Assembly (NCBI RefSeq): GCF_020731355.1
Contig: NZ_JAJFZK010000010.1
Span: forward strand, 62,001 to 126,000
Origin: Bacillus sp. REN16
GTDB taxonomy: Bacteria; Bacillota; Bacilli; Bacillales; Bacillaceae_L
Direction: 5' to 3'
Length of the DNA: 64,000 nt
Position 1 is the stretch's first letter, and each line of letters begins with the position of its first letter. The translations under genes and the position numbers were made by a program. A model generated the notes under the pieces. That model was not told the origin of the DNA, did not search any database, and saw only the letters and a list, made by a program, of their open reading frames with translations. This document shows, piece after piece, positions 2,726-63,905 of the stretch.

Positions 2726-3820
2726 GTGAGAGACCAGGATTATATGAATTTAGCGATAAATGTTGCAAAGGCAGGTGTTGGTCAAACAACACCCAATCCT
2801 GTAGTCGGGGCCGTTGTAGTGAACGAAGGCCGAGTAGTTGGTATTGGTGCGCACTTAAAGGCCGGGGAACCTCACGCCGAGGTTCATGCGATCCGGATGG
2901 CCGGTGATAAAGCCCGAAATGCAACCGCTTATGTAACATTAGAGCCTTGCAGTCACCATGGGAAAACTCCTCCTTGCGCTGATCTTTTGGTAAATAGTCA
3001 TGTGAAAAGAGTTGTCATTGCAACGACAGATCCAAATCCGCTTGTAGCCGGAAAGGGTATTGCCAAATTAGAGGCTGCCGGGATTGAGGTTGAGGTCGGG
3101 GTATGCAAAGAACAAGCAGATGAATTAAATGCAGTCTTTTATCATTATTTAGATAAAAAGATTCCATACGTAACCTTGAAATCCGCCACCACTCTTGATG
3201 GAAAAATAGCAACAGTAACAGGAGAAAGTAAATGGATAACAGGTGAGGAAGCAAGGAATGACGTCCATTTATATAGGAGTATCCACGATGCCATTCTTGT
3301 TGGAGTTAATACAGTTCTTGCAGATAATCCAAGTTTAACAACAAGGCTTCCAAATGGAACAGGAAAAAATCCGATTCGAATCATCTTGGATTCAAAACTA
3401 AGAACGCCTTTAGATTCAAAAGTCATTAATGACGGCGAAACCGAGACTTGGATTATAGTTTCCGATCAGGTAGGCGAAGGGGAAATAAACGAATTCTCCG
3501 GCAAAAATGGTGTTAAAGTTATTCAATTACAGGAGTCAAGAATTTCAATAAACACCCTGCTAACACGCTTAGGTGAAGAGGGTATTTCTTCCGTTTTTGT
3601 TGAAGGAGGAGCCGAAGTGAATGGCAGCTTTTTAAAGGAAAATGCGATTAACCAAGTCATCGTCTATCTTGCTCCAAAACTAATAGGTGGAAAGTCAGCA
3701 CCGACATCTATTGGCGGTACTGGAATTGAATCCATCGATGAAGCTTTACAATTAACAATTAAATCTGTTGAACTGCTCGGAGAAGACGTGAAAATCGTAG
3801 CGGAACCGAGATTGAGGTGA
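2726..3820 (+). CDS. ribD: Bifunctional riboflavin deaminase/reductase RibD
   Basis: 364-residue enzyme carrying out deamination and then side-chain reduction of the pyrimidine intermediate of riboflavin synthesis. The N-terminal CMP/dCMP-deaminase-type zinc domain (about 1-145) shows HAEVHAI and EPCSHHGKTPPC. The C-terminal RibD reductase domain (about 147-360) starts VTLKSATTLDGKIA and ends with SVFVEGGAEVNGSF and LAPKLIGG. GTG start with AAAGGAGTG upstream; first gene of the operon after the FMN riboswitch; 4 bases before ribE. Full length for Bacillus RibD. Confidence 0.97.
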   Translation: MRDQDYMNLAINVAKAGVGQTTPNPVVGAVVVNEGRVVGIGAHLKAGEPHAEVHAIRMAGDKARNATAYVTLEPCSHHGKTPPCADLLVNSHVKRVVIATTDPNPLVAGKGIAKLEAAGIEVEVGVCKEQADELNAVFYHYLDKKIPYVTLKSATTLDGKIATVTGESKWITGEEARNDVHLYRSIHDAILVGVNTVLADNPSLTTRLPNGTGKNPIRIILDSKLRTPLDSKVINDGETETWIIVSDQVGEGEINEFSGKNGVKVIQLQESRISINTLLTRLGEEGISSVFVEGGAEVNGSFLKENAINQVIVYLAPKLIGGKSAPTSIGGTGIESIDEALQLTIKSVELLGEDVKIVAEPRLR

Positions 3821-9603: not shown

Positions 9604-9925
9604 ATTTTCGTTGAGAGTACCAATAATAAAAGAATCATTTAACAAACAGTCCCCTAACGCTATATTAGCTTGTTGTGCTACCGGGTAGCTTTATTGAAAT
9701 AGGATAATACAGAAAGGCTTAGAGTTGAAGATAACTCTAAGCCTTTTTTGACTTTGAAATATACTGTGATTTGTGTTGAGAAATTTATGATATCTGCATT
9801 GTCATTAGGTCTGTGATTCAACGTGTTTGGCACCTAACAAGCAACCCCCTCAGTAATATACAAAGTTTAATAGTTCATAATGTTTGAGACACGAAAAGAG
9901 GGAAAACGCATACGATAATGACGAT
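9604..9925 (+). other. Intergenic stretch with terminator and small palindromes
   Basis: No ORF of note. It holds two small hairpins (GCTA-TAT-TAGC at 9659-9669 and GCTAC-CGG-GTAGC at 9677-9689), then the terminator at 9713-9748, then about 180 bases with no recognisable signal before repeat copy A. Confidence 0.5.
9713..9748 (+). terminator. Terminator downstream of the SpoVS-like gene
   Basis: Perfect 14-base stem AAAGGCTTAGAGTT / AACTCTAAGCCTTT with a 6-base loop and a T6 tail. Confidence 0.9.
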
Positions 9926-10060
9926 TTAACTTTATTCAGTCGAAGTTCTGACCCGACTGAATAAAGTCAAAGCCTCCGGCGGATGCCACGATTTTTCAAA
10001 GGAAGTTTTTCGAGCACGCTCGAAAAAATCGGGCGCAAATACGCCAAGGCGCATTTGATT
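9926..10060 (+). repeat. Structured intergenic repeat, copy A (short form)
   Basis: Hairpin 1 is ACTTTATTCAGTCG (9929-9942) with its perfect complement at 9954-9967. The shared core GCCTCCGGCGGATGCCAC follows. Then come an outer stem CGATTTTT / AAAAATCG holding TTTTTCGAGC / GCTCGAAAAA, and a last hairpin AAATACGCC-AA-GGCGCATTT. Its end lies 5 bases before the sodF Shine-Dalgarno. Other copies: 20830-21000, 37861-38054, 58165-58236 (reversed, truncated), 63756-63884. Confidence 0.9.
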
Positions 10061-10076
10061 ATAAGGGAGGATAATG

Positions 10077-20418: not shown

Positions 20419-20529
20419 TTTGAAAGAATGTGGCGAAGATTCTTGTTTCATAAGAAACATTTTCATTGTAAAAGAAAAAATCTTCTTGTAATATAAGGAT
20501 GTTAATTAAAAACAGAATAATAAATCAGA
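20419..20529 (+). other. Short region between resE and the cobalamin riboswitch
   Basis: A/T-rich; TATAAG-like boxes near 20490 could be the riboswitch promoter, but no convincing -35 was found and no terminator for resE is evident. Confidence 0.4.
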
Positions 20530-20725
20530 ATTAAGGTGTCAAAGAATGATCTAATCATTCTTTTAGACTTAATAGGGAATCTGGTGTGATACCAGAACTG
20601 CCCCCGCAACTGTAATAGTGGACGAAATGAGAAGAACCACTGTATGAATGGATGGCAAATGTTGTTCATCATATGGGAAGGGCTCAAAGTAGGAAGAAGC
20701 TTAAGTCAGTAGACCTGCCTATTTC
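20530..20725 (+). ncRNA. Cobalamin (B12) riboswitch
   Basis: The B12 box GAACTGCCCCCGCAACTGTA lies at about 20597-20616, preceded by AATAGGGAATCTGGTGTGATACC (the GGGAA-GGTG segment) and followed by the 3' end GTCAGTAGACCTGCC near 20705. The paired terminator lies at 20804-20830. It should lower expression of the downstream DUF4430/ECF genes when cobalamin is plentiful. Confidence 0.95.
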
Positions 20726-20803
20726 AATCGTCTTTTAATTCTTCGGGGTGGGGGATTAACAATCAAGCTATTTGCTTTTTTGTTGTTTTTCCTAATCATT
20801 AAC

Positions 20804-20830
20804 AAAGCCCACCCGAAACGGTGGGCTTTT
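20804..20830 (+). terminator. Cobalamin riboswitch terminator
   Basis: AAAGCCCACC / GGTGGGCTTT perfect stem, GAAAC loop, T tail. The T tract runs straight into hairpin 1 of repeat copy B. Confidence 0.88.
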
Positions 20831-21000
20831 AATTTTATATATAAAATTAAAGCCTCCGGCGGATGCCACGATTTTTCAAAGGAAATTTTTCGAGCAGTAA
20901 GATCGAAGACTAACAACGCCACATCCTGATGTCTTCGTCTTCATGACCCACTTCATGTGGGCCTAAAAATCGGGTGCAAATACGCCTTGGCGTATTTGAT
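20830..21000 (+). repeat. Structured intergenic repeat, copy B (long form)
   Basis: Hairpin 1 AATTTTATA / TATAAAATT (20831-20848), core GCCTCCGGCGGATGCCAC, outer stem CGATTTTT / AAAAATCG, and a long insertion (about 20896-20965) holding GAAGAC / GTCTTC and CCCAC-TTCAT-GTGGG stems; final hairpin AAATACGCC-TT-GGCGTATTT. It lies between the B12 riboswitch terminator and the first gene of that operon. Confidence 0.88.
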
Positions 21001-36482: not shown

Positions 36483-36581
36483 AGTGACTGGTAAGGTGGA
36501 CAATATTAGAAAATTGACACTTTCACCGCACTTTTTGAACATCCTCTAATGGAACTGCGAGAAATCTTGGGAGGTTTACAA

Positions 36582-37865
36582 ATGGTAGCCGAAAATAATC
36601 AGGACATTTCAAATCAAAATAATGAAGAGAAGATGGATGTCCTCAAATCTACACAAACAGTTATACATAAGGCATTAGAAAAATTAGGGTACCCTGAGGA
36701 AGTATACGAGCTTTTAAAAGAACCGATTCGAATGATGACTGTTAAAATTCCTGTAAGAATGGATGATGGATCTGTAAAAATCTTTACAGGCTATCGCGCA
36801 CAGCATAACGATGCGGTTGGTCCAACAAAAGGCGGAATTCGATTTCATCCCAATGTTACAGAGAAGGAAGTTAAAGCGCTTTCGATTTGGATGAGCTTAA
36901 AATGTGGTATCGTTGATTTACCATATGGTGGAGGCAAAGGCGGAATCATTTGCGACCCTAGAGATATGTCATTCCGTGAACTTGAACGACTAAGTCGTGG
37001 CTATGTTCGTGCAATTAGTCAAATCGTAGGTCCTACAAAGGATATCCCGGCTCCAGATGTATTTACAAATTCTCAAATTATGGCATGGATGATGGATGAG
37101 TATAGTCGAATTGACGAATTTAACTCACCTGGTTTCATTACTGGAAAGCCGCTTGTATTAGGTGGTTCACATGGCCGTGAGTCTGCAACAGCAAAGGGTG
37201 TAACCCTTTGTATTCGTGAAGCAGCAAAGAAACGCGGTATCAGTCTAGAAGGTGCACGTGTCGTTGTACAAGGCTTTGGAAATGCAGGTAGCTTTTTATC
37301 AAAATTTATGCATGACGCAGGTGCGAAAGTAATTGGTATTTCTGATGCATATGGCGGTTTATATGATCCAAATGGATTGGATATTGATTACTTATTAGAT
37401 CGTCGTGACAGCTTTGGAACAGTAACAAAGTTATTTAACGATACGATTACAAACAAGGAATTGCTTGAGCTCGATTGTGATATTCTTGTTCCCGCTGCAA
37501 TAGAAAACCAAATTACTGAAGAAAATGCCCATAATATACGTGCAGGTATTGTAGTGGAAGCCGCAAACGGTCCGACAACACTTGAAGCTACACAAATCCT
37601 GACTGAAAGAGAAGTACTCCTCGTTCCAGACGTTTTAGCAAGTGCTGGAGGGGTGACTGTTTCCTATTTTGAATGGGTTCAAAATAACCAGGGCTATTAC
37701 TGGTCAGAGGAAGAAGTAGAAGAAAAGCTAGAAAAAGTAATGGTCAAGTCATTTGAAAATATTTATTCAACTGCTCAAAATAGACGTGTTGACATGAGAC
37801 TTGCAGCCTACATGGTTGGAGTAAGAAAAATGGCCGAAGCTTCTCGCTTTAGAGGCTGGATTTAA
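36582..37865 (+). CDS. gudB: NAD-specific glutamate dehydrogenase
   Basis: 427-residue hexameric catabolic glutamate dehydrogenase, converting glutamate to 2-oxoglutarate and ammonia. Dimerisation/substrate domain with [25 protein letters not shown] (catalytic Lys), then the NAD Rossmann domain [12 protein letters not shown]-terminus [14 protein letters not shown]. It carries a single EVKALSIW, without the 9-base duplication that makes the laboratory B. subtilis gudB cryptic, so it should be active. ATG 36582 follows GGGAGG; the 11-codon upstream extension is not needed. The stop codon lies inside hairpin 1 of repeat copy C. Confidence 0.96.
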
Positions 37866-38054
37866 CTTTATTTTCGGGGAAGGGCCCCCGAAATAAAGTT
37901 AAAAGCCTCCGGCGGATGCCACAGATTTTCAAAGAAAATTTTTCGTTTAGGTAGGATTAAAGACTAAGTACGCCACTTCTTGTGGCAACGTCTTTATTAC
38001 CCACTTCCTGTGGGCCTAAAAATCTGGGCAACAAATACGCATTCGCGTATTTGA
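37861..38054 (+). repeat. Structured intergenic repeat, copy C (long form)
   Basis: Hairpin 1 TTTAACTTTATTTTCGGGG (37861-37879) pairs with 37886-37903 with one bulge, and contains the gudB stop codon. Core GCCTCCGGCGGATGCCAC, outer stem CAGATTTT / AAAATCTG, inserted module with GCCAC-TTCTT-GTGGC inside AAGAC / GTCTT, plus CCCAC-TTCCT-GTGGG; final AAATACGC / GCGTATTT hairpin. Confidence 0.9.
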
Positions 38055-38077
38055 TTCATTTTATTTGCAAATACCAC

Positions 38078-41010: not shown

Positions 41011-42084
41011 ATGAGCTTTAAAAAGTATCTGATGTTCCCCATCGTTCTTATCATGTTCGTTAGTATGTTCATTGGTGGAACTGCCAATAATGTTCAAGCA
41101 TTTTCAGAGCAGATTATCCAACGTGGTGCAACAGGTGACGATGTTATTGAGTTGCAATCAAGACTACAATATAACGGATATTATCATGGCACGATTGATG
41201 GGGTATACGGCTGGGGGACATATTGGGCAGTACGTAATTTTCAGAAGGCATTTGGACTTGAAGAGGTAGATGGTTTAGTCGGTGACAATACGAAGGCGAT
41301 GATTAACCGTTATACAAAGTATAATAAGCAATTTGTATATGACAATTTGCGTAAAGGGAATCATTTCACCCATTATGGCGGTGTTCCATGGAGTATTCAA
41401 TCCGCTCCTACTGAAAAGAATATCCAAAAAGCAAAAACTACAGCTGAATCTAGACGAGCTGAAATAGAAAAACAATTTACAGCCGAGCAAAAGCAGCCGC
41501 AGGCGGGTCAGGGAAAGGCGCCCGCACAACAGCAACCCAAGGCGCCTGCGCAGCAACAGCCTAAGGCTCCTGCTCAACAGCAACCAAAGGCACCAGCAAA
41601 GCAACAACCCAAAGCACCTGCACAACAGCAACCGAAGGCACCTGCTAAACAGCAGCCAAAAGCTAAGGTTGAACAACAAGAAGAGGCTCAGTCCCTTGGA
41701 CCTGCCGCTGTAAATATGCCAGGCGGGTTTTCACAAAATGATATTCAACTTCTTGCAAATGCTGTTTATGGAGAAGCACGTGGTGAGCCATACATTGGAC
41801 AGGTCGCAATTGCTGCGGTTATTTTAAACCGCCTTGATAGCCCGACTTTTCCAGATACAGTATCGGGTGTAATTTTTGAACCGCTAGCATTTACAGCAGT
41901 TGCAGATGGGCAAATTTGGTTGACACCAAATGAACAGGCGAAAAAAGCCGTTATTGATGCAATAAATGGTTGGGATCCTACAGGTGGAGCGACCTATTAC
42001 TTTAATCCAGTAACAGCAACAAGTAAATGGATCTGGGGTAGACCCCAAATTAAGAGAATTGGTAAGCACATATTCTGTCGATAG
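41011..42084 (+). CDS. sleB: Spore cortex-lytic enzyme SleB with a repeat-rich linker
   Basis: 357-residue lytic transglycosylase that depolymerises cortex during germination. Signal peptide (MFPIVLIMFVSMFIGGTANNVQA), PG_binding_1 domain (about 35-95: GATGDDVIELQSRLQYNGYY), then a long Ala/Pro/Gln/Lys linker with six tandem KAPA(Q/K)QQP units (about 169-216), then the Hydrolase_2 catalytic domain (about 238-357: NAVYGEARGEPYIGQVAIAAVILNR, with the catalytic Glu). The linker is longer than in B. subtilis SleB. A TTG at 41005 is in frame, but ATG 41011 has AGGGAGG at 9 bases. ypeB follows at 18 bases. Confidence 0.95.
   Translation: MSFKKYLMFPIVLIMFVSMFIGGTANNVQAFSEQIIQRGATGDDVIELQSRLQYNGYYHGTIDGVYGWGTYWAVRNFQKAFGLEEVDGLVGDNTKAMINRYTKYNKQFVYDNLRKGNHFTHYGGVPWSIQSAPTEKNIQKAKTTAESRRAEIEKQFTAEQKQPQAGQGKAPAQQQPKAPAQQQPKAPAQQQPKAPAKQQPKAPAQQQPKAPAKQQPKAKVEQQEEAQSLGPAAVNMPGGFSQNDIQLLANAVYGEARGEPYIGQVAIAAVILNRLDSPTFPDTVSGVIFEPLAFTAVADGQIWLTPNEQAKKAVIDAINGWDPTGGATYYFNPVTATSKWIWGRPQIKRIGKHIFCR
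41515..41658 (+). repeat. sleB: In-frame tandem repeat, six 24-base units in sleB
   Basis: Six consecutive 24-base units encode KAPAQQQP or KAPAKQQP. Codon use differs among units (GCG/GCT/GCA, CAA/CAG), so they are not recent identical copies. Confidence 0.9.
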
Positions 42085-58164: not shown

Positions 58165-58236
58165 AAAAAATCGTGGCATCCGCCGGAGGCTTAACTTTAT
58201 TAAATCGGGGTTTGACCTTCGACTTAATAAAGTTAT
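58165..58236 (-). repeat. Structured intergenic repeat, copy D (truncated, reversed)
   Basis: In reverse sense it holds hairpin 1 AACTTTATTAAGTCG / CGATTTAATAAAGTT (one G-T pair) and the core GCCTCCGGCGGATGCCAC, then stops after CGATTTTTT. The rest of the element is missing. It separates menG from hepT. Confidence 0.85.
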
Positions 58237-63755: not shown

Positions 63756-63884
63756 TTAACTTTATTTAGTTGGGTTTACCCAACTAAATAAAATTAAAGC
63801 CTCCGGCGGATGCCACAGATTTTTAAAGGAAATTTTTCGAGCATACTCGAAAAAATCTGGGCGCAAATACGCCAAGGCGCATTT
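63756..63884 (+). repeat. Structured intergenic repeat, copy E (short form)
   Basis: Hairpin 1 TTAACTTTATTTAGTTGGG (63756-63774) pairs with 63779-63797 with one mismatch; core GCCTCCGGCGGATGCCAC; outer stem CAGATTTTT / AAAAATCTG with TTTTTCGAG / CTCGAAAAA inside; final AAATACGCC-AA-GGCGCATTT. Ends 6 bases before the trpE Shine-Dalgarno. Confidence 0.9.
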
Positions 63885-63905
63885 AATTATGGAGGAGTGA
63901 GCCGA

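Follow-up and report, generated by a model that had tools for sequence, protein, structure and literature searches.

Short gene-free mobile elements in Bacillus sp. REN16 whose hairpin foot matches the DNA of the insertion site

Copies in the window and layout of the element

The window, i.e. the whole stretch of 64,000 nucleotides that was analysed, contains two riboswitches over their gathering scores, one for FMN (2359-2544) and one for cobalamin (20520-20736), and a series of 24-nt tandem repeats within a reading frame (41491-41687). It also holds five copies of a structured repeat, which an earlier note, made from the letters alone, had placed at 9926-10060, 20830-21000, 37861-38054, 58165-58236, and 63756-63884. 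All five were found at these places. The 18-base core of the repeat, GCCTCCGGCGGATGCCAC, which the note had called fixed, is present five times in the window. Allowing up to three mismatches, this compares with a chance expectation of 0.01, and none of 100 shuffles of the window reached five cores. The copies are as follows.

9925..10060, + strand: copy 1, short form; 5' hairpin 9925-9971, core 9972-9989, central stem, 3' hairpin with terminal AT 10036-10059
20831..21000, + strand: copy 2, long form; A/T hairpin, core 20852-20869, Bacillaceae-1 module 20894-20961, 3' hairpin with AT 20977-21000
37861..38055, + strand: copy 3, long form; 5' hairpin 37861-37904, core 37905-37922, Bacillaceae-1 module 37948-38014, 3' hairpin with AT 38032-38055
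58165..58236, - strand: copy 4, reversed and truncated some 8 bases past its core; core 58173-58190, 5' hairpin 58191-58236
63756..63887, + strand: copy 5, short form; 5' hairpin 63756-63798, core 63799-63816, 3' hairpin with AT 63864-63887

Copy 1 lies 14 nt upstream of a sense start at 10074, and the left end of copy 3 overlaps the stop codon of the open reading frame 36549-37865. Copy 2 is sited after a terminator, about 100 nt downstream of the cobalamin riboswitch.

Read in the direction of the core, the element consists of a 5' hairpin, the core, a central stem, GGGCG, a 3' hairpin, and a final AT. The central stem, which is either CGATTTTT/AAAAATCG or CAGATTTT/AAAATCTG, encloses a Bacillaceae-1 RNA module in some copies and a short TTTTTCGAGC hairpin in others, and the 3' hairpin is CAAATACGCC/GGCGCATTTG. 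The whole element measures about 130 or 190 bp. Among the 89 copies in the REN16 genome (see below), 55 are complete and short, with 86-91 nt from core start to 3' end, 30 are complete and long (147-152 nt), and in the remaining four, of which one sits at a contig end, no 3' end was recognised. A third form, with 235 nt from core to 3' end and a C-type repeat module in the central hairpin, was seen at L186, L273, and L293 (L and G numbers denote loci and genomes). In the REN16 copies L001, L016, L017, L019, L032, L054, L077, L084, and others, the 5' part is extended (ATGAATGCAAAAAGAG... ahead of ATTCAG) and another left arm lies farther upstream.

The earlier note had described a 5' hairpin whose outer arms are conserved in all copies, while its inner arms (CAGTCG, TTCGGGG, AAGTCG, TAGTTGGG) differ and remain paired. 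The pairing of the inner arms is borne out. The conservation of the outer arms has two exceptions, namely copy 2, which has its own short A/T hairpin and lacks ACTTTATT/AATAAAGT, and copy 5, whose right arm is AATAAAAT. Copy 4 is indeed reversed and truncated, its cut lying about 8 bases past the core. The switch between CGAT/ATCG and CAGAT/ATCTG in the central stem is real, but it amounts to one linked three-pair dimorphism (117-118 versus 48-51 among 173 distinct short copies) and not to many separate compensations, so that independent compensation in this stem was rejected.

Copy number and spread

To speak of a five-copy repeat, as the note did, is correct for the window and understates the genome. 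A pattern search of the whole genome revealed 89 copies of the core in REN16 with up to two mismatches, whereas the reversed control pattern gave none. All eight other genomes of the genus that we examined carry the element, with 15-53 copies each (up to one mismatch). Beyond the genus, the core was found in 3 of the 91 other relatives examined, with 1, 1, and 5 copies. Among the matches listed, exact cores occur in Siminovitchia, Fredinandcohnia, Psychrobacillus, Lysinibacillus, Ureibacillus, and Sporosarcina, and the longest nucleotide matches to the REN16 sequence (about 80-90%) come from Fredinandcohnia onubensis and Bacillus sp. HNG. Loci L088-L193 were taken from the matches listed in an exact core search and hence favour occupied sites.

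Also among the matches listed, a Lachnospiraceae metagenome bin (L107, minus strand, about 3245-3430) has an exact core and the whole layout of the element, adjoining a tmRNA gene. Its hairpins are all rewritten and still paired (AACTTCGTCGCG/CGCGACGAAGTT, GAGCGCGC/GCGCGCTC, and CAATTCCGCC/GGCGGAATTG), and the core and GGGCGC are retained. By this core and layout, the family may reach beyond the Bacillaceae. Among the 14 loci that we read, the layout is absent from five other non-Bacillaceae loci (L117, L133, L135, L163, and L189), which look like chance matches in GC-rich DNA. One locus filed as Arthrobacter (L169) carries the element on a stretch of 43% GC, which we suspect to be foreign to the Arthrobacter genome, possibly through assembly contamination. 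An origin in phages or plasmids was dropped, since exact patterns gave no match among viral contigs, nor did one window copy among plasmids and another among phages.

The Bacillaceae-1 module

A comparison with Rfam families, which the earlier note had also called for, gave a partial answer: the family Bacillaceae-1 (RF01690) covers only the optional inner module of the long copies. It exceeds its gathering score of 35 in copies 2 (43.5 bits) and 3 (69.6 bits) only, within that module, and the short copies 1 and 5 have no convincing match to any Rfam family. In the REN16 genome we identified 66 matches to Bacillaceae-1, 64 of them over the cut-off, and 31 of the 66 lie by position inside the element. 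Of the other 35 matches we examined the loci of 32, and these belong largely, as judged by eye, to at least three other repeat families with different ends. These families are found at L194-L224 of the same genome, and one of them (L195, L196, L211) also has variable paired hairpins at both ends. Since the matches are spread over the element and other repeat families, Bacillaceae-1 is here a shared cassette, and it forms the exchangeable inner module of the long copies. The 'sRNA' of Rfam would thus be recast, at least in this genus, as a cassette inside several repeat families. A table in Weinberg et al. 2010 lists Bacillaceae-1 RNA as probably not cis-regulatory (PMC2864571), and neither the Rfam entry nor the part of that paper available to us describes the element, whose short copies are devoid of Bacillaceae-1.

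Empty and occupied sites in related genomes

The earlier note had called the element mobile and transposase-free, and both terms hold. Congeners have empty sites, and the search for an autonomous version bearing a gene gave none in the 2.49 Mb examined (2,492,762 bases). These are short mobile elements without a gene. Orthologous sites were present among the retrieved loci for 38 of the 89 REN16 copies (window copy 1 is outside these), which allowed 108 comparisons. No recognisable element was present in 87 of them. 'Empty' is used here for any site without a recognised core, so that the class also takes in some decayed remnants, such as those of copy 3 in G004 and G007, and sites with other inserted sequence. 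The element was present in 19 comparisons, one record (L252/L129, the same stretch) being counted twice, and was inverted in two. The genomes are not all independent, because some of them are represented both by named loci and by a G number.

For the copies of the window, the site of copy 1 has no element in the two congeners shown (G006 and G008). That of copy 2 is empty in five congeners and has a short-form copy in G007, and G008 has no usable sequence there. The element is absent from the site of copy 3 in five congeners, with the remnants mentioned above in two more. The site of copy 4 is empty in all eight congeners, and that of copy 5 has no recognisable element in any of the eight, G003 having about 130 nt of other sequence. 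Several gaps are exact or nearly so, e.g. TTTAAC^GCCACAGG in the comparison of L068 with L180, and the flanks of L053 and L069 agree across four genomes. At one site the relative has the element inverted (L029/L183), and short and long forms replace each other at the same site in L076/L175, L064/L138, and L007/L129.

Where it can be read, the left junction falls in most cases within the left arm of the 5' hairpin, 3-6 bases in, and the right end corresponds to the 3' hairpin plus TTGAT, or slightly further. At the junctions examined, some of which have short microhomologies leaving an ambiguity of 1-4 bases, we found neither terminal inverted repeats nor a constant-length duplication of the target. 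The targets are T/A-rich and often end in TTA or TTTA, without being one fixed tetranucleotide. Of the 286 cores, 248 are followed by a 3' end within 220 nt and nine by a distant one, and for 29 none lies within 4 kb. In four of these nine there is no intervening core: three are the 235-nt copies with the C-type module (L186, L273, L293) and the fourth is L111.

The hairpin foot and the pre-insertion target

The outermost left-arm bases of the 5' hairpin are already present in the empty alleles of relatives and hence predate insertion; in window copy 1 too they were read as target. We therefore compared these pre-insertion target bases with the foot, i.e. the right-arm bases that connect the hairpin to the core. 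Over 18 cases from 17 places, foot and target are complementary at 73 of 82 bases (0.89). Shuffling the feet between elements gives 0.465 (sd 0.053), and none of 20,000 shuffles reached the observed value. Since the junction was placed by the longest left match, which may enter the element by chance, the count was repeated without the first junction base (59/72, 0.819) and without the first two (45/59, 0.763), again with none of 20,000 shuffles reaching these values. In the controls, the foot is complementary to the other side of the junction at 10 of 68 bases and to bases lying five positions further upstream at 28 of 69. In an earlier count, which retained related rows, 93 of 102 bases in 22 rows were complementary. 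There are also poor single rows, such as L005 (1/3) and L304 (2/4).

These cases come from 45 elements with an empty allele, of which 24 were used. In three the hairpin stops short of the target (3 of the 27 alleles with a usable junction), and 18 were set aside because the junction was not resolved (9), the hairpin was weak (6), the junction was deep in the hairpin (2), or the left match was short (1). The 24 were reduced to 18 by dropping L182, a second copy of L175, then L247, L251, and L254, where the empty allele may be a remnant, and finally L129 and L245, where the foot has fewer than three bases. L053 and L293 represent one site in two species, hence the 17 places. This complementarity suggests that a short built-in DNA guide helps pick the landing site.

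The same match between foot and target is also predicted if the arms are rewritten later. Insertion would then be unguided, near T/A-rich sites, and template switching in the palindrome during replication (quasi-palindrome correction) would copy the left flank into the right arm, which would make the foot match the target and keep the arms complementary without selection. This would fit the near-perfect arms with no preference for wobble pairs, the arms that are wholly different at occupied orthologous sites with flanks about 84% identical (L005/L106 and L059/L116), and the foot (columns -6 to -1) being far more variable than the adjacent core. Two single cases speak against it. One insertion has an 8-base match (AAATAAAA / TTTTATTT, by eye) already in place at flanks about 96% identical, and the foot of L291 is a better fit to TATCAAC of the empty allele than to TATTAAC of its present left arm, the present mismatch having been left unmended. 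From these two cases we lean towards pairing at insertion over later rewriting, which we regard as less likely and as the main alternative.

DNA or RNA cause of the coordinated arm changes

The earlier note had attributed the coordinated arm changes to selection on the folding of RNA or of single-stranded DNA. The changes themselves are found throughout the genome: in the 63 good hairpins of REN16, the complement stands opposite 314 of the 352 non-consensus left-arm bases, and arms of the same copy pair at 0.939, versus 0.457 when partners are shuffled. Under selection as RNA, a hairpin should accept G.U more readily than A.C. The 5' hairpins of all 89 copies, weak ones included, contain 1328 Watson-Crick pairs, 22 G.T, 26 A.C, and 49 others, under a scoring that treats G.T and A.C alike. 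Since G.T and A.C are about equally frequent, the 5' hairpin has no RNA wobble signature. For the inner helices, the totals are 286 G.U versus 74 A.C in 173 distinct short sequences and 95 versus 60 in 68 distinct long ones. One constant U.G pair supplies 151 (short) and 56 (long) of these G.U, and a weakly supported three-pair hairpin supplies another 52. With both set aside, the short sequences have 83 G.U versus 72 A.C, and the long ones 39 versus 60.

We thus rejected selection at the RNA level, given the similar G.T and A.C counts in the 5' hairpin and the near-equal ones elsewhere, bar the constant U.G pair and the weak small hairpin. The single-strand-DNA half of the attribution is favoured: the outer-arm matches involve target DNA that was there before the element, which indicates a DNA-level cause. 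The coordination of the arms points to an inverted repeat at the DNA level, not to RNA folding. Coordinated arm changes in bacterial repeats need not mean RNA function, as captured target DNA looks identical.

Gene context and orientation

Under a crude gene calling (open reading frames of at least 90 codons, or at least 60 if open at the end of a locus), a sense start accompanied by a Shine-Dalgarno match lies no more than 40 nt from the 3' end in 50 of the 85 complete REN16 copies, compared with 0.077 of random intergenic points of the window. An antisense start lies within 40 nt of the 5' end in 2 of the 85. Such closeness to starts speaks for a transcribed leader or a processing structure whose folding is selected as RNA. 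The folding z-scores of the sense strand in two copies (-3.95 and -8.08) and the presence of an Rfam RNA inside the long copies also agree with an RNA function. Set against this are the wobble counts given above, the antisense strands of the same two copies, which fold about equally well (z-scores of -5.56 and -7.57), the lineage-specificity of most sites, and the exchange of short, long, and inverted forms at the same site. On balance we find an RNA function improbable.

If a transcript were inserted, or reverse-transcribed, at transcribed sites, the sense orientation would follow directly. Consistent with this, a sense start lies within 250 nt downstream in 70 of the 85 copies and an antisense start within 250 nt upstream in 11. 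However, purifying selection can give the same bias: in both full short copies of the window the antisense strand has a terminator-like site, GGCGTATTTGCGCC followed by a run of T, and the sense strand has none. Reversed copies also exist (window copy 4 and L183). We consider an RNA-copied element very improbable. The strand difference in terminator-like sites is not uniform, as the 3' hairpin of the long copy 3 is itself flagged as terminator-like on the sense strand. Because of the terminator-like hairpin on the antisense strand of the short copies, the sense orientation beside genes was probably left by selection. The selective loss of antisense insertions may be enough to explain the orientation, but not the closeness to ribosome binding sites, which guided single-strand transposition does not predict either.

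Least probable of all is a classical MITE moved by a DDE transposase, which the short, intergenic, modular, and numerous copies would suit, but not the absence of terminal inverted repeats and of a constant-length duplication at the junctions. Two further candidates were dropped. Sites resembling attC have RYYYAAC/GTTRRRY motifs, and here only the left side is a junction. A bridge RNA as in IS110 would need guides specific to each copy, for which the nearly constant part after the core has no room.

Proposed mechanism and relation to known systems

The reading that we prefer, with a probability of about 0.5, is that of a non-autonomous transposon of the single-strand type whose hairpin foot is a DNA guide. 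The hairpin of the excised single strand would pair its foot with a T/A-rich target, and the foot would thereby set the point of joining. A transposase supplied in trans, at best guess of the HUH/Y1 type, would bind the near-invariant core and the hairpins. The coordination of the arms would then reflect the guide-target pair of each copy plus the need for a hairpin, and the inner hairpin would be the site where modules such as the Bacillaceae-1 RNA are exchanged. We also propose, tentatively, a natural family of gene-free transposons in which the foot is a variable guide of about 3-8 bases, changes of the foot redirect insertion, and copies keep the guide-target pair as a record of their jump. 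If this were true, the family would be the natural counterpart of the longer hairpin-target pairing that has so far been engineered in IS608. A foot acting as guide would make it a natural DNA-guided insertion system short enough to be synthesised as an oligonucleotide, and each genome would offer dozens of natural guide-target pairs from which its rules could be learned.

The comparisons that follow draw on the parts of the cited papers available to us. In IS608, a tetranucleotide guide base-pairs with the target TTAC (PMC5934647), and this natural guide lies 5' of the hairpin foot (PMC5934647, PMC6006769). IS608 has also been engineered to favour longer sites, by letting the bases that follow its left hairpin on the 3' side pair with sequence upstream of the target (PMC5934647). 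Our element resembles IS608 and the IS200/IS605 family in having a hairpin near the left end, a duplication-free insertion 3' of a short T/A-containing target that is kept as the left flank, and, as we propose, a target chosen by DNA-DNA pairing with the element. Its guide would have the geometry of the engineered IS608, with a foot 3' of the left hairpin pairing with upstream target bases, and by this analogy it looks like a natural version of the engineered arrangement (PMC5934647). In contrast to the natural IS608, its matching bases lie 3' of the hairpin. It further differs from IS200/IS605 in having no tnpA, a right-end hairpin that abuts the end, and a variable target instead of one tetranucleotide, and in that two congeners with many copies have no Y1 gene.

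Like REP and REPIN sequences and their RAYT genes, the element is an intergenic palindromic repeat of high copy number, and RAYT-like genes are present in 7 of the 9 genomes of the genus. Two REN16 proteins match REP_Tyr_transpos (NCBIfam) just under its cut-off, with 71.8 and 76.4 versus 80. However, REP tags are GTAG or CGTC (PMC3733652), and the aligned copies of the element have neither; the element is also larger, with three hairpins. The BOX repeats of Streptococcus pneumoniae are likewise modular, transcribed, and structured intergenic repeats with an optional inner module, but their terminal inverted repeats resemble those of ISSpn2 and the element has none (PMC3049150). Judged by their description, the bcr1-bcr18 repeats of the Bacillus cereus group are also intergenic repeats of related bacteria, often within mRNA, and bcr1-3 are MITE-like (PMC3446304). 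A search for 17 letters of the core gave no match in the papers covered, and nothing similar was found under the name of the Bacillaceae-1 RNA or for such a repeat, in a literature coverage that largely leaves aside subscription journals.

We found no candidate enzyme common to all hosts. Y1 (PF01797) is present in 7 of the 9 genomes of the genus and is missing in G003 (53 copies) and G008 (30 copies); it was also found in 10 of 12 further genomes, one of the 12 being again a genome of the genus. An IS91-type enzyme (PF04986) was dropped, as it is present in only 3 of the 9. Unlike what is seen with REP and RAYT, only one of the six Y1 loci of REN16 has a Bacillaceae-1 repeat close to its start, some 50 nt away, and the element lies about 120 nt from a broken one. 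As a link to the enzyme, the proximity between Y1 genes and these repeats is suggestive and no more: among 20 Y1 loci in nine genomes, one is near an element and one near a Bacillaceae-1 repeat.
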